DNA of 51,425 nt from Candidatus Falkowiibacteriota bacterium (GCA_003554785.1 PWHG01000067.1:1-51425); one strand, 5' to 3'. Shown: positions 16,009 to 28,896, counted from the stretch's first letter. Notes: generated by a model not told the origin, from the sequence alone. Program-made: numbers and translations.

Positions 16009-17097
16009 ATGAAAAGACTAGTAGTAGTACTAATTGTCTTTGTCCTGGGATTATTTGGCATTAAGATGCATGAGTCAAAAGATTTAAAAAAAATTGAAGA
16101 ATCTTTTTTCTCAGCTAATCATACTGCCAGGTATTGGACAAGTCCAATTATCAGACCAGAAAATGTAGAAAATTTAGCTAAAACTGATTTGTTAATTGTT
16201 GATGTAGAAAATATGTTCAACAATTATAATCATTTAGTGGAAATCAAGAAAAAAAATCCAGACTTGAAATTGATTTGCTACACCAATCCGATGGAGATTT
16301 GGACGACTAAATACGATAATCGTCCTTGGCAAAACTCAGTGATTGATGAAATTGTAAATAACAGACCAGAATGGATATTGCGGCAAACAATTTACAATGA
16401 AAGGTCACTAGTAACATTTTGGCCTGGAATGACAATGTTAAACCTTTCAACGGCTTGTCCAAGAGAAGGTTGGAGACGATATTATTCCTGGATGGCTAGA
16501 AAGCTAAATCGCGAAGTTTTATCTGACACGATTTGGGATGGTTATTTCATGGATAATTGTACTCCCAATATTTCTTGGGTATCACCAGGAAATATTGACA
16601 TAAACAATGATGGTCAACCCAACTTGGATCAAAGAATTGACCAGAGTTGGGAAAGAGGTGTTAGACGATTCTTGCGTCGAATTCGCCGAAGCAATAATGA
16701 TGATTTCATTATTATTGGCAACAAAGGTGATCATTATTATCTAGACATTGTGGATGGAAAAATGTTTGAAAATTTTCCCAATGCTTGGCTTGGTGATGAG
16801 TGGGCTGAGGGATTTGAACAATCAATTGAAAATGCCAAAAAAACCGGAGCCTATACCATTTTTAGTATAAACTCAGGAGAAGTAGAATTTGGTCTAGCTA
16901 GTGCCTTGCTTCTAGATAATGTTTATCTAGCGATAGGACAGGATGATGATCAAATTTATCAAGAGTTTATGATTGATCTTGGTAAGCCACTTGGACCTTA
17001 TTACAGAGAAGGGGATAAATATATTCGCCACTTTGAAAAGGGAAAAGTAGTAGTATCCCCACTACAAAGAAAAGGGGAAATAAGGGCTACAGTTTAG
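16009..17097 (+). CDS. Putative glycoside hydrolase (GHL15-like), secreted/membrane-anchored
   Basis: LLIVDVEN, FWPGMTMLNLS, WDGYFMDN, MFENFPNAW; parallel motifs in the 37290-39305 product. Confidence 0.65.
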   Translation: MKRLVVVLIVFVLGLFGIKMHESKDLKKIEESFFSANHTARYWTSPIIRPENVENLAKTDLLIVDVENMFNNYNHLVEIKKKNPDLKLICYTNPMEIWTTKYDNRPWQNSVIDEIVNNRPEWILRQTIYNERSLVTFWPGMTMLNLSTACPREGWRRYYSWMARKLNREVLSDTIWDGYFMDNCTPNISWVSPGNIDINNDGQPNLDQRIDQSWERGVRRFLRRIRRSNNDDFIIIGNKGDHYYLDIVDGKMFENFPNAWLGDEWAEGFEQSIENAKKTGAYTIFSINSGEVEFGLASALLLDNVYLAIGQDDDQIYQEFMIDLGKPLGPYYREGDKYIRHFEKGKVVVSPLQRKGEIRATV

Positions 17098-17107
17098 CCC
17101 TTTTTTT
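17082..17107 (+). terminator. Terminator overlapping the stop codon of the 16009-17097 CDS
   Basis: AAGGGCT...AGCCCTT + T7; TAG lies in the hairpin. Confidence 0.8.
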
Positions 17108-17137
17108 ATTTTAATTTATCAGTTATTATTATAATAT

Positions 17138-18433
17138 ATGTTAGAAATTTTAATTTTACTTACAATTTTAATTTTTGTTTTATTTACCATCTTACCTAAA
17201 ATCGGTTTATATATTTTAGCTTTATCATTGCCACTTATTGGTATTGAGTTAAGTTTGTATAATTTAAGTATACCGATCGTTGATTTAATTGCTGTAACTT
17301 TGCTTTTAGCTTTTTTTCTTAATTATCTAATAAGTTTAGTTTCTAAAAATAAAGTCAATAAATTATCTTGGCCCTTTTTAGTGCCATTTGCTATTTTTTT
17401 GTTAATTAGTTTTTTATCAGTTATTTTTTCTGGTAACTTTAGCGATTCACTTTATTACTTTCTTCGCTGGTTAGTCTTTCTTTATTTAGCCTACATTGTA
17501 GTGCCGGCAAATATTATTAAAAATCCAAAAATATTGAAAACTACTATTGTAATGGTGTTTATTAGCTCACTTGTAGTTTTGTTTGGTGGCTTTTTATCTC
17601 TTTATGGTCAAGATATCTATGATAGTTTCTTTCGTTTGCAAGGTATAAACATATCTGGTTTTTTTCCATTTGGCAGAAATCATAATTTAATTGCAGAGTT
17701 TTTAAATATTGGCGTTTTTCTTACTTTAATTATTAGGGAATTTTTAAAAAGTCAACGTGAGAAAAATTTAGCTGATGTTTTATTTGTTTTATTTACTTTT
17801 GGAATTATATTAACTTTTTCCCGAGCCGCTTGGATTACTTTAATTTTACAATTAATTGTTTATTTAGGCTTTAAGGCTTACTACAAAAAAAGAGAAAGAA
17901 TTCCAATTGTCTTAATTAGTCTTTTATTTCTAATTATCATCTCACCACTTTTTTTCCGCATGGAAAGACTCCAAGATGCCAATATTGGCTCAACTCAGAG
18001 TCGAGTGCTTTTAAACAATGTAGCAATTAATGCAGTTAAGGAGAAACCAATACTAGGTCATGGGAGTGGGGAATTTATAAATTTAGTTGATAAAGATATT
18101 CGTTTCAGGGCTCAGCATGGAGAAGCAATTGATGCCCATGGTGTACTTGCTAAAGTTTTAGCAGAAAGTGGAATATTTGGTTTAGTTGCCTGGCTCTTTA
18201 TTGTCTTATATTTATTTAAAATTACAGTGCTAGCAATAAAAAGATATTACCCTAAAATCTCTTGGATACTTCCACTTTGCCTGGCTGTTTGGGGCGGCTT
18301 GTTTTTTCAACTATTTAACACCTCGTACTTTAAAGGAAAAGTCTGGCTTCCAATACTACTTCTATTTTTAGCTATTAAATTTTTAGACGAGAAATATGTC
18401 AAAAAAAATAAAAATACTACATATATTACCTAA
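17138..18433 (+). CDS. O-antigen ligase/polymerase (Wzy/WaaL-like) multi-pass membrane protein
   Basis: TFSRAAWITL; KPILGHGSGEFI; DAHGVLAKVLAESGIFGLVAWL. Confidence 0.82.
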   Translation: MLEILILLTILIFVLFTILPKIGLYILALSLPLIGIELSLYNLSIPIVDLIAVTLLLAFFLNYLISLVSKNKVNKLSWPFLVPFAIFLLISFLSVIFSGNFSDSLYYFLRWLVFLYLAYIVVPANIIKNPKILKTTIVMVFISSLVVLFGGFLSLYGQDIYDSFFRLQGINISGFFPFGRNHNLIAEFLNIGVFLTLIIREFLKSQREKNLADVLFVLFTFGIILTFSRAAWITLILQLIVYLGFKAYYKKRERIPIVLISLLFLIIISPLFFRMERLQDANIGSTQSRVLLNNVAINAVKEKPILGHGSGEFINLVDKDIRFRAQHGEAIDAHGVLAKVLAESGIFGLVAWLFIVLYLFKITVLAIKRYYPKISWILPLCLAVWGGLFFQLFNTSYFKGKVWLPILLLFLAIKFLDEKYVKKNKNTTYIT

Positions 18434-19493
18434 TTTAAGCGGTGGGGGTGCGGAAAAAGTTTGCCTGCAAATTCTAATTGGTTTAGATAAAAATAAATTT
18501 AGAACCTATCTTTTATTATTTAAAGACAACGACAAACAAGTTGGAATAATTGAAAAAAGGCAATTAGAGAGATCGGGAGTCAAGATTATTTCTTTGAAAA
18601 AAAAATATTTATTTGATTTTATTAATTTTTTTCAAATAATAAAAAACCTAAATAAAATTAAAGCTGATGTTTTGCATTGTCATTTAGGCGGCGATGTTTA
18701 TGGACCACTGGCAAGCTACTTTATAAAAAAACCTAAGATTATCTCAACTGAACACAATATTAATATCTCAGAGAAAAGATTAGCTAACTTTCTTAAAAGA
18801 CTTAGTGTGGGAAGAATTGATAAAATATTGGCAGTCTCAAAAGCAGTTAAAAGAGATGCGATAAAGCGATATAATATTAATGAAAGAAAAATTGATATAG
18901 TATATAATGGAGTTGATTTAAATTACTATAATTTAGAAACTAAAAAAAGACCTAAAAATGAACCAATAATTTTAGGCTCAATGGGTAGATTAAATAAACA
19001 AAAAGGCCATAGTGATTTAATAAAAGCTTGCTCACTGCTAAAAAATCAAAACTATATATTAGAGATTGCTGGAGAAGGGTATTTAAAAGAATCTTTGGAA
19101 AAACAAATTAGTAGTTTAGGTTTAGAAAATAGAATTAGTTTAGTTGGTCAAGTAAATAGCCAAAATTGGTTAAATAAAATTGACATTTTTGTTATGCCAT
19201 CTCGCTGGGAAGGTTTAGGTTTAGCTATTCTAGAAGCAGCTGCGAGCAGAAAACCAATTATTGCCAGCTCAGTTGATGGGATACTGGAGATATTGGATAA
19301 TAAAAATAGCTTTTTATATGAAAACAAAAACTTAGATCAATTAACAAAAAATATTGATTTTCTTTTAACTAATCTAAACAGTCAGGTTGTTCAAGAAAAA
19401 ATTGAATTAGCCTATAGTTTAGTTAAAAGTAAGTTTAGTTTAAATAAAATGATAGAAAATTACCAAACTATTTATGAAAATATTACAGGTTAA
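18396..19493 (+). CDS. GT4-family glycosyltransferase
   Basis: ILPNLSGGGAEKVCLQILIGL; MPSRWEGLGLAILEAAASRKPIIAS. Confidence 0.88.
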   Translation: MSKKIKILHILPNLSGGGAEKVCLQILIGLDKNKFRTYLLLFKDNDKQVGIIEKRQLERSGVKIISLKKKYLFDFINFFQIIKNLNKIKADVLHCHLGGDVYGPLASYFIKKPKIISTEHNINISEKRLANFLKRLSVGRIDKILAVSKAVKRDAIKRYNINERKIDIVYNGVDLNYYNLETKKRPKNEPIILGSMGRLNKQKGHSDLIKACSLLKNQNYILEIAGEGYLKESLEKQISSLGLENRISLVGQVNSQNWLNKIDIFVMPSRWEGLGLAILEAAASRKPIIASSVDGILEILDNKNSFLYENKNLDQLTKNIDFLLTNLNSQVVQEKIELAYSLVKSKFSLNKMIENYQTIYENITG

Positions 19494-20691
19494 CAAATAT
19501 CATTATCCTAAAGGTGGAGCTGATAAATACTATCTTAAATTATCGCAAAAACTAAAAGAAGCTAATTATGAGGTGGCTAATTTTTCCATGCTGCATCCAA
19601 AAAATTTAGACTCAAAATGGTCTAAGTATTTTGTTTCAAATATTGAATTTAATAATTCAAAATTTATTGACAAACTTAAAACTCCGGGACGAATTATTTA
19701 TAGTTTAGAGGCTAAAAATAAATTTGAAAAATTAGTTAAGGATTTTAAACCTGACATAGTTCATTTGCACAATATTTACCATCAAATCTCTCCTTCAATT
19801 TTAAATATCACCAGAAAATACCAAATACCAACAATTATTCATTTACACGACTACAAACTAATTTGTCCAAATTATCAACTATTTACAAACAATCATACTT
19901 GCCAAGCTTGTTTAAAAAAAAGATACTACAATTGTTTTTTTAAAAAATGCCTAAAAAATTCCTATAGCAAAATTGCTTTAGCTAGCTTAGAGATGTATAT
20001 TCATCACTCAATTTTAAATATCTATAAAAAAAATATTGATCATTTAATTTCTCCAAGTAAGTTTTTAAAAAATAAATTTGTTGAATTTGGCTGGCCAAGT
20101 GAGAAAATTTCTGTTTTATATAACCCATTTGATAGTACTCTAGAAACAAAAAAGGATTTAAAAAGAAAAAACTATCTTCTCTATTTTGGACGCTTAAGCA
20201 AAGAGAAGGGAATTGATGTTTTATTAAATGCGCTTAAAAGCACTAATGAAAGCTTAAAGATTGTTGGCAGTGGTTCTTATGAAAATCAACTTAAAAAATT
20301 AGCTAAAGAGAAAAATTTAAATGTAGAGTTTTTAGGCTTTAAAGAAGGTGATGATTTAATTAGCATCATCTCTGAAGCCAAAGCAGTGATTATTCCTTCA
20401 ATTTGGTGGGAAAATATGCCCCTTAACATGCTTGAAGCTCTTAGTTTAGAAAAACCAGTGATTGCTAGTAGCACTGGCGGAATGCCTGAGATTATAAAAG
20501 AAGGAGAAAATGGCCTTCTATTTAAACCAGGTTCAGTTAGTGAATTAAGAGAAAAAATTAAAAAGTTAAATCAACTTGATTTAGATAAAATGGGGAAAAA
20601 AGCCAAAGAAAGTGTCAAACATTTAAACGAAGATAGTAATTTAAAAGCAATAGAAGAAATCTATAATTCATTTAAAAAAAGAAATCCTTAA
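19474..20691 (+). CDS. GT4-family glycosyltransferase
   Basis: KYHYPKGGADKYYLKLSQKL; PSIWWENMPLNMLEALSLEKPVIASSTGGMPEII. Confidence 0.9.
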   Translation: MKILQVNKYHYPKGGADKYYLKLSQKLKEANYEVANFSMLHPKNLDSKWSKYFVSNIEFNNSKFIDKLKTPGRIIYSLEAKNKFEKLVKDFKPDIVHLHNIYHQISPSILNITRKYQIPTIIHLHDYKLICPNYQLFTNNHTCQACLKKRYYNCFFKKCLKNSYSKIALASLEMYIHHSILNIYKKNIDHLISPSKFLKNKFVEFGWPSEKISVLYNPFDSTLETKKDLKRKNYLLYFGRLSKEKGIDVLLNALKSTNESLKIVGSGSYENQLKKLAKEKNLNVEFLGFKEGDDLISIISEAKAVIIPSIWWENMPLNMLEALSLEKPVIASSTGGMPEIIKEGENGLLFKPGSVSELREKIKKLNQLDLDKMGKKAKESVKHLNEDSNLKAIEEIYNSFKKRNP

Positions 20692-20730: not shown

Positions 20731-22050
20731 TTATTCAATAGTAATTGAAATACTATAATGAAGACCTGAGTCTTTTCCTTCTACTTTTATATCATGTCGC
20801 CCAGCTTTCATTTCTGGAATTGTAATAACTTCAGAAAAACGACCTCTAAAATTTGCTTTAGAATTAGTTTTTTCTTTAGCGATAGTGATGATTAAATCTT
20901 CATCTGGTCTAAAACCACCACCGGAAACTAAAACTTCACTATTTATATAAGCGCGAGTTTTATCCAAATTTAGAAACAGATTTTCAAGTGGATAAACCCT
21001 GTCATCTGTTTCAGTGGCTTCAACTGAGGCTATTTTTTCTAAATTTTCATCTAAAACTAAAATATTAGTATTGTTAAATATCACTAATTTATCACCGTTT
21101 AAATGAAGAACTTTAAGGCCCATTGCCCAACCAGATTGTCCTCCCAGGTGAGTTGTGAAGCGATAATTACTTAGGTTCATATTTTGATCTAATTGAACCA
21201 CTCCTACGCCATTGCTAAAATAAACATTATGATTGTGTCCACTACTAGTAATATCAAAACCTTGATGGCCAATATGTTTGAAGTGTCCAAGTAAGTTACC
21301 ATTTAAATCAAATTTTTTGGCATAGTAGTCATCAACTACATATAAGTGACCAAAACTGTCTTGATAAGCTTTTCTATTACCTTTTTCATATTTAAAATTT
21401 AAAGGTATGTCGCTAACAGTTTTTCTAGTTTCTCTATCATAAGCTAATAATGAACTAGTTTCTTCGTCAACACTTAAAATAAAGCGATCAATACCGGCAT
21501 TAATATTATAAGGTGACTTGGAGTTTGTAAAATCATAAGAATCAATTACTTGGAGATCAAAATTAAAATATTTAACACCTTTAGCACTAACAGTTACAAT
21601 TCTACCATCAAATCGATTAATGCGATTATACCACTCCCAATAAGTATTTTTACTTTCATTTACTAAATGTAGACTATTTCCTACTACTTGATATTTATAA
21701 ATAGTATAATGACTAACCGCATAAACAAATAATTGATTTCTTTCAACAGAAAATGTTAAATCATAAAAATCCTCATAGCGATTAAAACGAGGGTTATAGG
21801 GTTTAATTTTTTCGAGTAATGTTAAATTATCATCATCTAGACGAAAAACCTCTAGACTTCCAGTGTCAGCACTACCAACATAAATATTATTGGCAAAAAC
21901 AATCGCATCGCCGGAATAATATGATTTTAAATTTGTTTTTCCGGAATTAATCATTAAAGTAGTTAATAAAATCACTACCAATAATCCAATTCCAATAATT
22001 GACCATTTTTTCATATTTTTATTTTTATATTTTAAAATTCTAGTTATCAT
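20731..22050 (-). CDS. Membrane-anchored beta-propeller protein with C-terminal Ig-like domain (start may be 22014)
   Basis: N-term TM WSIIGIGLLVVILLTTLMI; repeated blades; SEVLVSGGGFRPDEDLIITI... C-term. Confidence 0.55.
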   Translation of the reverse strand: MITRILKYKNKNMKKWSIIGIGLLVVILLTTLMINSGKTNLKSYYSGDAIVFANNIYVGSADTGSLEVFRLDDDNLTLLEKIKPYNPRFNRYEDFYDLTFSVERNQLFVYAVSHYTIYKYQVVGNSLHLVNESKNTYWEWYNRINRFDGRIVTVSAKGVKYFNFDLQVIDSYDFTNSKSPYNINAGIDRFILSVDEETSSLLAYDRETRKTVSDIPLNFKYEKGNRKAYQDSFGHLYVVDDYYAKKFDLNGNLLGHFKHIGHQGFDITSSGHNHNVYFSNGVGVVQLDQNMNLSNYRFTTHLGGQSGWAMGLKVLHLNGDKLVIFNNTNILVLDENLEKIASVEATETDDRVYPLENLFLNLDKTRAYINSEVLVSGGGFRPDEDLIITIAKEKTNSKANFRGRFSEVITIPEMKAGRHDIKVEGKDSGLHYSISITIE

Positions 22051-22141: not shown

Positions 22142-22927
22142 ATGGAATTTAATCAATTTTCGCAATTAGTAAACCGAAAAAAACAGACAATCGTTAGTAT
22201 TATGCTAATAAGTTTAGTTTTAGTATTAGTTGCATCTATTCTTTCTCCTATAAAATATGGAGCTCAATCAAGAATTTTAGTTATGCAAGAGGGGGTAACT
22301 TCTGATGCTTATACTCTATCAAGAACTAATGAATATTTAGGAAACTTATTTTCTCAAATAATTTATTCAAGTTCATTTTTTGATTTAGTAATGGACAATG
22401 ATAATTATCAAATTGATAATAATTATTTCAGTGGTCAACAAACAGAAAGAATTAAAAAATGGAGAAATTCAATTAATACACGTACATATAGTGACAGTGG
22501 AATTATTGAAATTAATGTTTATCACCAACAACCACAACAAGCACAACAAATTGCTTTATCGATTAATAGCACCTTAACTAGTTATAGTCATAAGTATTCT
22601 GGTAATGAAAATATTAAAATTAATGTTATTGATCAACCACTAGTATCAGAGAGGCCAGTTAAACCAAACATACCCTATATTATCGCAATTACTATCTTAG
22701 GATCATTTATTTTAGCTTTAATCTTTATCTACATTTTTCCTGAAGAAAAATATGATATTAGATTATTTACAGCTAAAGCAAAAAAAAGCAAAAAAAATAT
22801 TGATCAAATAATAGAAGAAGAGGAAGAAGAAAGTGAAGAAGCAAAAAGATTAAATGAATATTATAGAAACTTGGAAAAAAATCGAGAAGATGATGTGTCA
22901 GGTGATATGGACAATATCATCAAATAA
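22142..22927 (+). CDS. Wzz/chain-length-determinant-like protein
   Basis: Two TMs flanking an extracytoplasmic domain; VSERPVKPNIPYIIAITILGSFILALIFIYIFPE. Confidence 0.75.
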   Translation: MEFNQFSQLVNRKKQTIVSIMLISLVLVLVASILSPIKYGAQSRILVMQEGVTSDAYTLSRTNEYLGNLFSQIIYSSSFFDLVMDNDNYQIDNNYFSGQQTERIKKWRNSINTRTYSDSGIIEINVYHQQPQQAQQIALSINSTLTSYSHKYSGNENIKINVIDQPLVSERPVKPNIPYIIAITILGSFILALIFIYIFPEEKYDIRLFTAKAKKSKKNIDQIIEEEEEESEEAKRLNEYYRNLEKNREDDVSGDMDNIIK

Positions 22928-22930
22928 TCC

Positions 22931-22959
22931 TTGACAAAAATCCAGTTTTAATATATATT
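22931..22959 (+). promoter_or_regulatory. Sigma70-like promoter of the first island gene
   Basis: TTGACA-17-TATATT. Confidence 0.65.
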
Positions 22960-23016
22960 AATCAGTTAATAATTGTTCATTTTAAAAAAACCAAATGGGT
23001 AGGAGGCCCTTGAGTA

Positions 23017-23487
23017 ATGAAAAAAGTAGAAAAAGATTATGTAATTTATGGACTTGTTTTTTTGTTTCTTCTTTTGCTGGTTTACATGCTAGCAACCAGA
23101 AGTGATAAAAGTTCAGCAGAACACACTATTGATGAAAGGGTTGAAATCAAAGAACAACCCAGAGCAAAAGCTACACCGCAAGGTACCACAACCTTCTGTT
23201 TTCGGCTCAACGGTAGGGAAGACATGCATTTACCAGCACTCCTGGGAGGCGCTGGAAATGACGTCTATCCAAACGGACTTTCCGGGTTTAACTGGTCATT
23301 GACACCAACTTCAAGTGGCGATGAACCTTATGGAATCCTAGATGACGGGACTATCTTTGTAAAAAAAGAGTTCCTTTCAAAATGGGACCCGAATAAGGTT
23401 GAAATTAAGTCCGACCTCACTGGCTGGAGCCCTGTTCAAATGCGAGAAGAAGAAGTAAACGGAGAGCCGGCTTACGTGTATAAATAA
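23017..23487 (+). CDS. Membrane-anchored protein with unrecognised C-terminal domain (paralogue A)
   Basis: AGGAGG at 23001-23006; N-term TM YVIYGLVFLFLLLLVYMLA; C-term FCFRLNGREDMHLP...YGILDDGTIFV...IKSDLTGWSPVQM...YVYK. Confidence 0.8.
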   Translation: MKKVEKDYVIYGLVFLFLLLLVYMLATRSDKSSAEHTIDERVEIKEQPRAKATPQGTTTFCFRLNGREDMHLPALLGGAGNDVYPNGLSGFNWSLTPTSSGDEPYGILDDGTIFVKKEFLSKWDPNKVEIKSDLTGWSPVQMREEEVNGEPAYVYK

Positions 23488-23502
23488 GCCAAACCTCCAA
23501 TT

Positions 23503-23533
23503 GCCTCAGTTGTAAAAAACTGAGGCTTTTTTT
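23503..23533 (+). terminator. Terminator after paralogue A
   Basis: GCCTCAGT...ACTGAGGC + T7. Confidence 0.85.
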
Positions 23534-23543
23534 ATATTTTCTC

Positions 23544-23572
23544 TTGACATAAACAAAAAAATTATGTACAAT
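23544..23572 (+). promoter_or_regulatory. Sigma70-like promoter for the beta-barrel gene
   Basis: TTGACA-17-TACAAT. Confidence 0.7.
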
Positions 23573-23631
23573 AATATGATTATTTAAAAAAATAATTTAT
23601 TGAACATTAACAACAAAAAAAATATACAGTC

Positions 23632-24501
23632 ATGAAAAAATTTGTAATTTTTATCATTCTGTTTTTGGGTTTTATTTACTCAAGCTCAGGACAATTCAAA
23701 GAAGAGGTAAATGTTTCACTCTTTGCTGGTGGTTATTTTGCTCAGCAAAACACTAACAATCAAGGAGGTTGGTACGGCATTTATGCCGAATACTTACCTT
23801 TTAAAACTTCAGACCATGTATCTTTTGGTTTTTCCTTTCTTTATTCAAAGTCTAGGTTTGAAAATAATACTCAAACCTACAGGTATGAAGGAAGTAGCAG
23901 TCAAATTGGTGCAGGTATTACTGTAGGGAAATACTGGGATTTTTTCTCTCTGCGACATTCAGCTTTTTTAGGCACAAATATTATGCTTAAAAAAACTGAA
24001 GATCAAGGAAGAGGGGATGGTCACAATGGATCTGTTTATGAAATGACTCAAGAGGACTATATAGTTTCTTTTGATCTCAATTTCAACCTTCTTAAAACAT
24101 ATGGGTATTCCCATAACATTTTTCCTAGAACCCAGTTTAAATTGGGTTGGCAAAAACCTTTAGCTTTCTATAAAGAAGACTATTGGAATGGGGATGAAAT
24201 TCCGGAATCAGTTATTTGGGATAAAGCTGGCTTTAGTTCTGAAATAAAACTTAGTCTTATTGAAGCTGGTCTGTTTGAAAACCTAAGACAATACAAGGTT
24301 TTTCTGGGATATCAATATTTCCGGGGAGACAGAAGTCATTGGTTAATTACAGGTCCTGAAATGTCTTTTTTGAAAATGGAAAAAGATGACTGGCTTAGTA
24401 TAAACCTGTTTGTTAAACAACGAATAGGAAATTTTGAGCCAAGCCTTAATGATACCCATTTTGGTGTCAATTTGGTATTTACTTTTACGAATTTAAATTA
24501 A
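23632..24501 (+). CDS. Candidate outer-membrane-type beta-barrel protein with signal peptide
   Basis: MKKFVIFIILFLGFIYSSSGQ signal; alternating amphipathic aromatic strands (VNVSLFAGGYFAQQ, HVSFGFSFLYSKSRF, THFGVNLVFTFTNLN). Confidence 0.65.
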   Translation: MKKFVIFIILFLGFIYSSSGQFKEEVNVSLFAGGYFAQQNTNNQGGWYGIYAEYLPFKTSDHVSFGFSFLYSKSRFENNTQTYRYEGSSSQIGAGITVGKYWDFFSLRHSAFLGTNIMLKKTEDQGRGDGHNGSVYEMTQEDYIVSFDLNFNLLKTYGYSHNIFPRTQFKLGWQKPLAFYKEDYWNGDEIPESVIWDKAGFSSEIKLSLIEAGLFENLRQYKVFLGYQYFRGDRSHWLITGPEMSFLKMEKDDWLSINLFVKQRIGNFEPSLNDTHFGVNLVFTFTNLN

Positions 24502-24532
24502 GAAATTGTATAAACAAAAAGGAGGATTAATC

Positions 24533-25198
24533 ATGAAAAAACAAGTATTTTGGATTGCACTGATTATATTAATTGGTGCCATACTTTTCCTGTTTTATTT
24601 CAACTTCTGTTCAACAGACAGAGTTGAGGTGGAAACAAGAGAAGTTCACACAGAAATCAGAGAAGCTGATTATCAGAGATTAAGGGACAGAATTGTAAGT
24701 CTGGAAAGAAAACTACTTGAGCTGGAAAATAAAATTAACCAGCACACAAGCGCTAAAACAACGACCACTAGGTCGGTGACTCAAGCTAAACCTGCACCCA
24801 CTCCTGAGCCTAGGCCGGAACCAAAGACAGTAAGGGCTGATGATAAAAAAGCAGACCTGAGTCATTTACGTAACGTAAGTGGCGACATCATCTTCTGTGT
24901 TATGGCAAATAATGATGGTGGAATGCATTTTCCCCAATATGCCCTGGAAAGAGGAGCAACTTTTGAAGGAAACGTTCGATCCAATACTACCAGCGATGGA
25001 AACAACTGGGTCGTGCACCCAACAGAAACCATGCGTGGAGATTATGGAATCACTCATGATGGCACATTTTTTGTGTCTCATAGTGTAATTGATTCCCTAA
25101 TTGACGTCCATAACCTTGCCATAAAGTCAGAATTTACTGGTTGGCAACCAAGAGACATGACAAGAGAAGGGAATTATTGGGTTTATAAAACCCGATGA
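24533..25198 (+). CDS. Membrane-anchored protein with coiled-coil stalk and the same C-terminal domain (paralogue B)
   Basis: AGGAGG at 24520-24525; TM FWIALIILIGAILFLFYF; coiled coil RLRDRIVSLERKLLELENKI; C-term IIFCVMANNDGGMHFP...YGITHDGTFFV...IKSEFTGWQPRDM...WVYK; TGA stop. Confidence 0.8.
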   Translation: MKKQVFWIALIILIGAILFLFYFNFCSTDRVEVETREVHTEIREADYQRLRDRIVSLERKLLELENKINQHTSAKTTTTRSVTQAKPAPTPEPRPEPKTVRADDKKADLSHLRNVSGDIIFCVMANNDGGMHFPQYALERGATFEGNVRSNTTSDGNNWVVHPTETMRGDYGITHDGTFFVSHSVIDSLIDVHNLAIKSEFTGWQPRDMTREGNYWVYKTR

Positions 25199-25214
25199 TC
25201 CTTCAAAAAATACA

Positions 25215-25247
25215 CCCTCAGATTAAATTAAAATCTGAGGGTTTTTT
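25215..25247 (+). terminator. Terminator after paralogue B
   Basis: CCCTCAGATT...AATCTGAGGG + T6. Confidence 0.85.
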
Positions 25248-25252
25248 AATAT

Positions 25253-25285
25253 AAAAAACCCCTAAACTAAAAAAGTTTAGGGGTT
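25253..25285 (-). terminator. Terminator of the minus-strand lipoprotein gene
   Basis: AACCCCTAAACT...AGTTTAGGGGTT, T run on the minus strand. Confidence 0.85.
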
Positions 25286-25300
25286 ATACTTTTTCACAAA

Positions 25301-26434
25301 CTAACTTATAATTTGTAAAAAAATATATTGATAATAATCATCCCAGAAAATTGACTGGGACATATTATTATTTTCCTGATCTTCATATAAACCCCAGACC
25401 ATTCTTACGGGGAAATCTTCTATATCGGAGATATGAAGCTTTCCCCAGTTAGGAAAATTTGGAACCGAACTTAAGGGTATTGGTGAATGCCACTGCTCAT
25501 TGTGGTCAAGATATGACCACCAGGGATCACCTTGACTAAATGAGCCATCAAGATTTACATAAACTGTAACTGAATTGTCGTTGTTTATTGTAAACCTCAA
25601 GGCTGCTGATGGTCCCTGATCACCATTTTCACCGGGAATTGGCACAACTGGAATAATTTCTCCATCATCTTTTAGATGAAAAGAAATAAGGGTTGGTTCA
25701 TCAACAGTCACAAAATTACTGTTTTTGAAGTTTCCCCATATTGGATCATCACCAACAAACCTCACCACTCCAAAAGAGTGATCACCGGGCGCTATTTCAA
25801 TTTGAGTTTTAACCCAATGACCAACGCCTTCTGCGGGATGAAGTTCACCATTAGAAGACATTCGATAATTGGTATCAGCCGGATTTATCATTTGGTGATT
25901 ATCCCAGGGAATATCTGTAATTGTGCCATACAGATAATAGTTTCCTGATACTCCATGCCAGGCATTTTTGTAGATACCGGCAGTAATCTTAAATTTATCA
26001 CCACTTTCCTCTACATCAGTGATGTAAAACGGTGATTCAGGGTATCTAGGAAATAAATTTAAATAGGAGGTAACTTGATGTTCTTCTCCATTTAAACCTA
26101 CTATAGTTAATGATATTGACTTCATATCATAACCGCCATAGAAATAAATGGGATTATCATCAAAGCTTTCCTCCTCATTCCAAAATTCCCATATAACATA
26201 ATCTACAGACATATCAGTTTCATAACTAAATATGAACTGTTTGTTAGATTCAACCATGAAGATGGTTTCACCAGCTTCGGTTGTTGTGGTTTCAATTTCC
26301 TGACCTTCTTCAAGTGTAGCCACTTTAATTGCAACTTCACCATCACCAGGATCAAGATCGGGATCCATGTAATCTACCTTTTCGCAGGCAGAAAAAATGA
26401 AAAAGAAAAGAAAAATACTCAGAATTTTTTTCAT
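25301..26434 (-). CDS. Secreted lipoprotein of unknown function, Bacteroidetes-like style
   Basis: MKKILSIFLFFFIFSAC lipobox followed by acidic EKVDYMDPDLDPGDGE. Confidence 0.7.
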   Translation of the reverse strand: MKKILSIFLFFFIFSACEKVDYMDPDLDPGDGEVAIKVATLEEGQEIETTTTEAGETIFMVESNKQFIFSYETDMSVDYVIWEFWNEEESFDDNPIYFYGGYDMKSISLTIVGLNGEEHQVTSYLNLFPRYPESPFYITDVEESGDKFKITAGIYKNAWHGVSGNYYLYGTITDIPWDNHQMINPADTNYRMSSNGELHPAEGVGHWVKTQIEIAPGDHSFGVVRFVGDDPIWGNFKNSNFVTVDEPTLISFHLKDDGEIIPVVPIPGENGDQGPSAALRFTINNDNSVTVYVNLDGSFSQGDPWWSYLDHNEQWHSPIPLSSVPNFPNWGKLHISDIEDFPVRMVWGLYEDQENNNMSQSIFWDDYYQYIFLQIIS

Positions 26435-26485
26435 GACTCAACAATTTTGGGTTAATATTTAAGTTTTTTAAAAGAACTAATATAT

Positions 26486-27583
26486 TTAAATTAATAAACT
26501 TCTATATAAATTTAGGGTCTCTTTAGCAATTGCTAGAGATTCATAGTTTTCTTTTACACTGTTTTTTAACTTTTCTCCCATATTTTTTAATTTCTCCTTA
26601 TCAGTATTTAAAATTTCTTTTAATTTATGTTCTAAACTGTTAATATTTTGACTTTTAAAGCTATAGGATAAGTTATTAGTAGTTTGCAAATTAGCCTCAA
26701 TATCACTAACCAAACATGGTAGGGAATAACTCATGGCTTCAAGCAGGGAAATTGACAATCCTTCCATTTTTGAAGTTTGAGTGAATAAATAGGCATTAGC
26801 AAATAAATGTTTTAAATTATCTCCATTTTGGTTGTTAGTAAATATAATTCTATCATCACCAACTGCTAGACTTTCTAATTCTTGTTTATATTCACCCTCA
26901 CCAACAATAACTAACTTTTTATCAGTCTCAATATTTTTAAAAGCTTCAATTAAATACTGAACTCCTTTTAATTTGATAATTCTAGAAACACTTAAAATAT
27001 AGGAATCTTTTTCAAGGTTCCAATTTTTTAGTAAATCATTTCCAGGATATTCAGGAATTTCTACACCATTAGGTATTAAAATTGCTTCTTTGTTATATTT
27101 ATTTTTAAAATATTCCTTAGTAATTGGGGTTAAAACTATCACCTTATCAGCCCACTTCGCCATAGACTTTTCACCCATTTTAAGCATTAATCTAGCAAAA
27201 CGTCCCCATTTATCATTATCATAATCAAAGCTATGTAAAGTAGATATAACTTTAACTTTTGGTTTAAATAGTTTTACTATAAATATTAAAAGGGAAGGGC
27301 CAACACCATGAAAATGAACAATATCAACTTTTCTAAAACAAACATCAATAGTAGCTAAAAAGTTGTGCGTAATACTGGCTAAATTTTTAGTATTTATAAA
27401 AGGCTTAGAAATTATCTTAATTCCTTTAAACTCATTTTTACTATCTGGCCAATACTTTTTGCGATTGTATACTAAAATTTCTTGATCAAGCAATTTTAAA
27501 CTAAGTGCCAATCTTTCGGCTTGCTTTTCAACCCCGCCATCTTTAGCCGGAATGCCTTTTTGTCCGATAAATGCAATTTTCAT
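26486..27583 (-). CDS. GT4-family glycosyltransferase (start at MKIAFIGQKG)
   Basis: MKIAFIGQKGIPAKDGGVEKQAERLALSL; TSKMEGLSISLLEAMSYSLPCLVSD. Confidence 0.88.
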   Translation of the reverse strand: MKIAFIGQKGIPAKDGGVEKQAERLALSLKLLDQEILVYNRKKYWPDSKNEFKGIKIISKPFINTKNLASITHNFLATIDVCFRKVDIVHFHGVGPSLLIFIVKLFKPKVKVISTLHSFDYDNDKWGRFARLMLKMGEKSMAKWADKVIVLTPITKEYFKNKYNKEAILIPNGVEIPEYPGNDLLKNWNLEKDSYILSVSRIIKLKGVQYLIEAFKNIETDKKLVIVGEGEYKQELESLAVGDDRIIFTNNQNGDNLKHLFANAYLFTQTSKMEGLSISLLEAMSYSLPCLVSDIEANLQTTNNLSYSFKSQNINSLEHKLKEILNTDKEKLKNMGEKLKNSVKENYESLAIAKETLNLYRSLLI

Positions 27584-27687
27584 ATAATTAAATTTAACAT
27601 ATAAACTTATCAATTTTTAACAATTATGTCAAGGCTTGCTGTTTTATTTTATTTATAATAAACTGAAAATACAAAGATAAAAATATT

Positions 27688-28896
27688 ATGATTAAAATAT
27701 TAGGTATAAAATTAGCAAGTATTGATAAACACAGTTTATTGAAAAAATTAGAAAAGATTCTAGAAAGAGAGAAAAAAATATACATTTGCACTCCAAATCC
27801 AGAAATAATTCTTAAATCTCATCAAGATGAGGAGCTATTTTATATTTTAAACCAAGCTGAATACAATTTAGCAGATGGTTTTGGTTTGCAAATTGCTGGT
27901 CGTTTAAGCAATCAAAGTTTTCCTCGAATTACTGGTGCTGATTTTAGTCTTGAACTTTTAAAATTAGCAGAAAAACAAGAAAAAAAAGTAATAATTGTAA
28001 ATCATAAAAATGGTCGCTCAAGTATCAGTGATATTGAGAAAGCTTTAAAAAAATTAGTACCCAATCTAAATTTTTTAGTTATTAATTCTGATGTTAAAAT
28101 TAATCTTGACAAAAACTCTGAAAAACAAATTGAAGAATATTCAGCTGATATTTTATTCTCTCTATTTGGCGCCCCTTGGCAAGAAAAGTTTATTTACCAT
28201 AACTTAAATAAATTTACTAATCTAAAAATTGCCATTGGCGTGGGCGGAGCTTTTGATTTTTTAACTAAAAAAGCCAAACGAGCTTCAAAGTTAATCAGAA
28301 AAATTGGTCTGGAATGGTTGTGGCGATTAATACTTGAACCCAAGAGATTTAAAAGAATATTTAATGCCACAATTTTATTTATGGCTAAAGTAATTAATTG
28401 GCGCTTTATTCTCCCTCTTAAATATCGAAAAAATGTGGCTTGTTTGCTATATAGATTTAAAAACAAGGAAAAGGAAATACTGCTAGTTAAAAGAAGTGAT
28501 CAAAAAAATCATTGGCAAGTTCCTCAAGGTGGTCTTGATGGTCAAAAAATTATTGAGGCCGGAAAAAGGGAACTAAGAGAAGAGGTTGGTACCAGCAATT
28601 TTACTGTTGAAAAAGTTTTTAAAAATGTATTTAAATATAAATTTAGAGATAATTTTTCTTCTGATAAAGAGAAAAATAAACATTATGATAAATTTGGCTA
28701 CAAGGGCCAAAAACAAAATTTATTAATCGCTCGCTTTACTGGCAGTGATGAGGATATAAACATTAATTTTTGGGACCACACAAATTGGAAGTGGGTAAAG
28801 AAATCAGAGGTACTAAAGATTGTTCACCCAGTTAGAAGAAATGCTACTAAAAAATTTTTAGAAAAATTAAATAAATTAAAATATGAAAAAAATTAG
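27688..28896 (+). CDS. WecG/TagA/CpsF-family glycosyltransferase fused to a C-terminal Nudix domain
   Basis: CTPNPEIILKSHQDEELFYILNQAEYNLADGFGLQIAGR (GT26); WQVPQGGLDGQKIIEAGKRELREEVGT (Nudix box). Confidence 0.85.
   Translation: MIKILGIKLASIDKHSLLKKLEKILEREKKIYICTPNPEIILKSHQDEELFYILNQAEYNLADGFGLQIAGRLSNQSFPRITGADFSLELLKLAEKQEKKVIIVNHKNGRSSISDIEKALKKLVPNLNFLVINSDVKINLDKNSEKQIEEYSADILFSLFGAPWQEKFIYHNLNKFTNLKIAIGVGGAFDFLTKKAKRASKLIRKIGLEWLWRLILEPKRFKRIFNATILFMAKVINWRFILPLKYRKNVACLLYRFKNKEKEILLVKRSDQKNHWQVPQGGLDGQKIIEAGKRELREEVGTSNFTVEKVFKNVFKYKFRDNFSSDKEKNKHYDKFGYKGQKQNLLIARFTGSDEDININFWDHTNWKWVKKSEVLKIVHPVRRNATKKFLEKLNKLKYEKN

Follow-up and report, generated by a model that had tools for sequence, protein, structure and literature searches.

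A resident gene cassette of Candidatus Falkowbacteria encodes a predicted outer-membrane-type beta-barrel

Results

Four putative surface-protein genes lie within a predicted polysaccharide locus

The window analyzed here, a 51,425-nt stretch of DNA from a member of the Candidatus Falkowbacteria (Patescibacteria), corresponds to contig C27 of a 911-kb, 86-contig draft genome (G000) that is estimated to be 82% complete. It contains four open reading frames encoding proteins of 156, 289, 221 and 377 aa (P0001-P0004), as described in an earlier note on the same DNA, which had also correctly placed the organism in the CPR. By the families assigned to the surrounding genes, the cassette lies inside a putative Wzy-type polysaccharide locus (Table 1). 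The Wzz-like protein P0005 scores below the Pfam cut-offs for both GNVR (20.6 bits, cut-off 27.7, E 4.4e-4) and Wzz (17.6 bits, cut-off 25.5, E 0.005). The divergently oriented F4 gene encodes a protein whose alignment has a mean column identity of 55% and whose repeat pattern suggests a beta-propeller. The same pattern had raised glutaminyl cyclase as a candidate, which was dropped as no PDB profile matched. Downstream of the cassette (27688-28896), reading by eye suggests that a WecG/TagA-like domain is fused to a Nudix-like stretch; some relatives have a WecG/TagA-like protein of only about 240 aa. Many relatives carry a CorA gene between GT4 (or F5) and WecG, which is absent from the window at 27613-27688.

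Table 1 Features of the cassette and its surroundings (window positions)
Position	Strand	Feature	Remarks
16009-20691	+	GHL15-like, Wzy_C-like and two GT4 genes	families assigned on relatives
20731-22014	-	F4, membrane-anchored, repeat-bearing	from alignment of relatives
22142-22927	+	F3, Wzz-like polysaccharide co-polymerase (P0005, 261 aa)	sub-cut-off Pfam GNVR/Wzz
22931-22959	+	near-consensus sigma-70 promoter of 23017 gene	TTGACA-17-TATATT (11/12)
23001-23006	+	Shine-Dalgarno site of 23017 gene	AGGAGG
23017-23487	+	F1a (P0001, 156 aa)	N-terminal anchor, linker, ~100-aa C-terminal domain
23503-23526	+	intrinsic terminator after F1a	
23544-23572	+	near-consensus promoter of barrel gene	TTGACA-17-TACAAT (11/12)
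23632-24501	+	F2, barrel (P0002, 289 aa)	signal peptide, Gln21, predicted 12-stranded outer-membrane-type barrel
24520-24525	+	Shine-Dalgarno site of 24533 gene	AGGAGG
24533-25198	+	F1b (P0003, 221 aa)	anchor, coiled coil, Thr/Pro-rich linker, C-terminal domain
25214-25242	+	terminator of + strand unit	
25257-25285	-	terminator of lipoprotein gene	
25301-26434	-	F5 (P0004, 377 aa)	lipoprotein, predicted Ig/PKD-like and further beta domains
26486-27613	-	GT4 glycosyltransferase flanking lipoprotein gene	PF00534, 6e-28

Two of the genes are preceded by a full AGGAGG Shine-Dalgarno site, as reported earlier, and the claimed rarity of this motif was borne out: it occurs before 4 of 236 sampled ORFs of the genome, while 214 have no Shine-Dalgarno-like motif at all. 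The site before the 24533 gene comes on top of these four because the ORF caller had taken a TTG start; we prefer the ATG at 24533 behind AGGAGG as the start of F1b over the worse TTG at 24506. Shine-Dalgarno sites are likewise nearly missing from the closed genome of a relative (G028), where 787 of 836 ORFs have none.

The promoters of the 23017 and 23632 genes are near-consensus and resemble those of Wzz and F4 across the family. Wzz and F4 are divergent promoter partners, and TTGACA was found upstream of F4 in 20/23 and of Wzz in 20/23 genes. The same hexamer precedes the barrel gene in the other loci that carry F1a (L050, L072, L075, L079 and L082). In loci without an intervening F1a, 2-134 nt separate Wzz from the downstream barrel gene, which has the same orientation, and the barrel gene is followed at a distance of -1 to 41 nt by that of the anchored protein. 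This spacing, together with the separate TTGACA promoter of the barrel gene in F1a-carrying loci, suggests an ancestral Wzz-barrel-F1b unit.

The cassette is a resident of the Falkowbacteria

Searched with single proteins of the window, the 39 genomes of the family gave matches to the barrel in 18 cases, to F1 in 11 and to F5 in 12. A profile search identified the barrel in 24 of the 39 and in two further genomes of the order that belong to other families. Among 384 genomes drawn evenly from the phylum, four matched the barrel, every one within the window's order. In the 15 family genomes without a match, the barrel may be missing from an incomplete assembly, lost or too divergent for the profile to detect.

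Gene calls on 20 loci of the searched genomes and on 23 named loci revealed a recurring order, with variations: GHL15 - Wzy - GT4 - GT4 - F4 - Wzz - (F1a) - barrel - F1b, followed by F5 and GT4 in either order and then CorA - WecG - GltX - M23 - Xer. The order is shared by the single-contig chromosome of G028 (CP066698.1), and Wzz-barrel-F1 is also present in another family (L144). F1a occurs in only part of the family. The conserved core consists of Wzz - barrel - F1b, directly adjacent to one another in most relatives, usually with a multi-domain lipoprotein gene and a GT4 gene behind. The mean identity is 31% for the barrel, 23% for F1 and 25% for F5, compared to 50% for Wzz and F4. By pairwise distance, the barrel and F5 diverge in step with F4 (Mantel r 0.84 for the barrel and 0.82 for F5, p 0.0005 for both), and the barrel also does so with Wzz (r 0.72, p 0.0005), a correlation of distances that is no substitute for a comparison of trees.

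The slot behind Wzz varies in some genomes. In Falkowbacteria GWF2_43_32 (L071, 10858-20313), the barrel slot between Wzz and GT4 is expanded and holds two divergent barrel-like proteins, several lipoproteins and one coiled-coil protein. In L084 (2425-3351), an exported 308-aa protein with Gln after its signal peptide is encoded behind Wzz and has no detectable relation to the barrel family. Genome G024 carries two barrel-family copies (L063, 2144-2992 and 7277-8110), neither of them beside Wzz in the stretch that was read.

The earlier note had read the region as a foreign-looking island from a diderm donor, and two features fit a recent arrival: the Bacteroidota-like signal peptides and the GC content. 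The hand-counted values of that note (30/60, 31/60 and 11/60) are exact, and the 3.5-kb region has 36.2% GC compared to 30.0 ± 1.7% (maximum 33.4%) in other windows of the same size. However, in 18 of 19 loci the GC content of the cassette genes exceeds that of their neighbors (by a mean of 5.6 points, and of 8.4 in GC3), and it correlates with local GC across loci (r 0.76), which indicates an old property of these genes. Amino-acid make-up accounts for part of the rise, as second-position GC is up by 7 points. High expression as the source of the GC3 rise was not supported by codon adaptation towards ribosomal genes in G028, where the cassette genes rank at percentiles of 0.09-0.69, F4 at 0.98 and Wzz at 0.89. 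The near-consensus promoters, too, speak against a recent island, as the resident Wzz and F4 genes have similar ones. Synteny, the distance correlation and the family-wide GC pattern thus largely rule out a recent acquisition, which we regard as highly improbable: homologues are vertically inherited at the same place in related CPR genomes. The genes may have been acquired in the distant past, prior to the divergence of the family. Even more remote than a recent island is an assembly chimera. The genome is a draft MAG in 86 contigs, but the same genes sit at the same place across relatives, and assemblies made independently, as well as a one-contig genome, show the same order across the junctions, so that synteny makes a misassembly very improbable. 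The four genes are therefore best read as an old, jointly inherited surface cassette of the Falkowbacteria.

P0002 is confidently predicted to be a membrane barrel

P0002 belongs to no family in Pfam or NCBIfam and has no match among PDB sequences; a plasmid search for relatives returned one weak partial match only. We modeled the protein with AlphaFold2 from an 18-sequence alignment drawn only from the window and the named loci. In the model (pLDDT 86.6, pTM 0.80), the signal peptide forms a helix and is followed by 12 strands. In a Foldseek search of the PDB, the best matches were autotransporter translocators (E 8.4e-9, TM-score about 0.5), followed by other outer-membrane barrels; scores of this size support the fold class and no specific family. 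In this prediction, P0002 has an even number of antiparallel strands, and it matches PDB barrels. A Sec signal peptide is visible in all full-length members, and Gln21 at the expected +1 position is invariant in the 18 aligned sequences. The C-terminal HFGVNLVF resembles a BAM beta-signal, which some relatives lack (read by eye).

Should the membrane pattern be misleading, P0002 could instead be a soluble or lipocalin-like barrel. Over whole strands, the contrast between the two faces is indeed moderate (48% vs 27% hydrophobic, p 0.016). However, in the 9-residue strand cores the alternation of lipid-facing and polar residues is strong (0.55 vs 0.35 ± 0.04 in shuffled sequences, reached by 0 of 2000 shuffles), the 12 strands are long, and the top PDB matches are outer-membrane barrels. 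A soluble barrel hence appears quite improbable, and the model, the fold search and strand amphipathy together make a convincing case for a true membrane barrel, in line with what had been guessed from the sequence. That the cassette is resident and that its barrel is a real membrane barrel are, held jointly, very probable.

Glutamine at the +1 position of the signal peptide is a hallmark of exported proteins of Bacteroidetes (PMC5837995). We rejected this rule as proof of a Bacteroidota origin, since a rough inspection by eye showed Gln behind further signal peptides of G028 as well.

The barrel is accompanied by anchored proteins and a lipoprotein

The paralogy of the two anchored proteins proposed in the earlier note is real: the C-terminal domains of F1a and F1b are 39% identical over 96 aa, and in F1b this domain follows the pattern FC..P..N..G.N..P..YG..DG.FFV. 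In several F1b relatives, a lipobox replaces the membrane anchor. With an anchor or lipobox, a predicted coiled coil, a Thr/Pro linker and a small domain, F1b looks like a stalk.

P0004 was rightly read as a lipoprotein. It has a plainly visible signal peptide and a lipobox (FSAC, Cys17) with acidic residues downstream, and its genome encodes LspA, as do 38 of the 39 family genomes, so that lipoproteins can be processed. The AlphaFold2 model of P0004 is only fair (mean pLDDT 72.6, pTM 0.45). P0004 itself gave no Pfam match, while a PKD domain was matched in 2 of 12 relatives; weak Foldseek matches include multi-Ig surface and glycan-binding proteins, at query TM-scores of about 0.15-0.2. A comparison with viral contigs yielded no match.

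Two small contigs of the window's genome (C10 and C14; L115 and L119) encode large, Bacteroidota-like exported proteins, one with WD40-like repeats, and are possibly contamination of the MAG.

No Omp85 and few OPX or secretin genes were found in the lineage

Omp85/BamA scored over the cut-off in none of the 39 family and none of the 111 order genomes, the window's 82%-complete genome included, while all seven control genomes were positive; one sub-cut-off stretch (G071) was left out of the count. OPX/Poly_export was detected in one of the 111 order genomes, a large draft (G026), and not in that of the window. Secretin occurs in two of the 39 family genomes only (G028 and G029). In G028, a secretin with a lipobox (PF00263, 9.3e-41) is encoded beside three exported proteins (L173, 10645-14537; G028:C1, 390.6-394.5 kb).

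Discussion

To our knowledge, the envelope of most Patescibacteria has been inferred rather than seen, and how these cells grip their hosts is largely obscure. For a relative from BM507, an order of the class ABY1 that may or may not be the window's own, a single membrane was inferred (PMC11809585), and absence of an outer membrane has been proposed for Patescibacteria (PMC12102498). The cassette thus poses a paradox: an outer-membrane-type barrel in a lineage in which no insertion machinery was found and single-membrane cells are expected. At only slightly less than an even chance, we propose that Falkowbacteria either possess an outer-membrane-like layer with Omp85-free barrel insertion or export the barrel into the envelope of a host.

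Tentatively, we favor an envelope-spanning polysaccharide or adhesion complex in an unrecognized outer layer of the cell itself. The cassette products would form one assembly, in which Wzz would set polymer length in the cytoplasmic membrane and F1b would serve as an anchored coiled-coil stalk that extends to the outside. The 12-stranded barrel would sit in a lipid-containing outer layer as a pore or anchor, and the putative Ig/PKD lipoprotein may display or bind glycan or a partner cell. In favor of this mechanism we counted the shared gene order, the Wzz-barrel-F1b spacing, the distance tracking, the barrel model, LspA and the architecture of F1b. Against it we counted the missing Omp85, the near absence of OPX and secretin, and the single-membrane proposals cited above. 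If the barrel resides in the cell's own outer layer, this layer must accept it without Omp85.

The main rival to such an own layer is delivery to a host. The Sec-exported barrel would reach a diderm host, whose BAM would insert it into the host's outer membrane as a pore or docking receptor, while F1 and the lipoprotein would stay on the epibiont and hold the contact. This would suit a lineage without an Omp85 of its own, the fast divergence of barrel, F1 and F5 relative to Wzz and F4, and the invariant Gln that recalls Bacteroidetes export; moreover, cultivated Patescibacteria depend on hosts (PMC12206443). However, it leaves the tight linkage to Wzz and the polysaccharide locus unexplained, the locus has no dedicated secretion signal or effector transporter, and no host is known for Falkowbacteria, so we consider it unlikely. 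We give still less weight to the barrel inserting into shed vesicles or a patchy glycolipid coat made by the locus, in which case the cell would have no full outer membrane and the barrel would not be delivered to a host. The polysaccharide genes on all sides and the lack of detected outer-membrane biogenesis genes agree with such a coat, but we know of no precedent for outer-membrane-type barrels used in this way. The earlier note's view of a surface module is likely right, and with the barrel sitting either in an unrecognized outer layer or in a host, a conserved, predicted membrane barrel offers a concrete, testable handle on the Patescibacteria envelope and its grip on hosts.

Several known systems resemble parts of the cassette. 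Like the autotransporter translocators Hbp, EspP and NalP, its best Foldseek matches, P0002 has a signal peptide, long antiparallel barrel strands and alternating lipid-facing and polar residues. In contrast to these, it has no visible passenger domain and no assigned family, its genomes lack Omp85, and no homology is detectable at the sequence level, with 8-13% identity in the best autotransporter fold matches. P0004 shares with surface lipoproteins of Bacteroidota (PKD/SGBP-type) the lipobox, the acidic stretch after Cys and, by prediction, Ig/PKD-like beta domains, but differs in its lack of a Pfam match and its low TM-scores, and no SusC/D genes were seen in the cassette. The aligned barrel proteins conform to the Bacteroidetes Q-rule, whereas in a rough screen Gln was not universal among the exported proteins of the closed Falkowbacteria genome. 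As in diderm Wzy-dependent loci, in which OPX/Wza accompanies Wzz or Wzc, the locus contains Wzz-like, Wzy_C and GT genes, and a barrel gene is linked to the co-polymerase; unlike these loci, the window's genome has in place of OPX a novel barrel family and an anchored protein with a predicted coiled coil.
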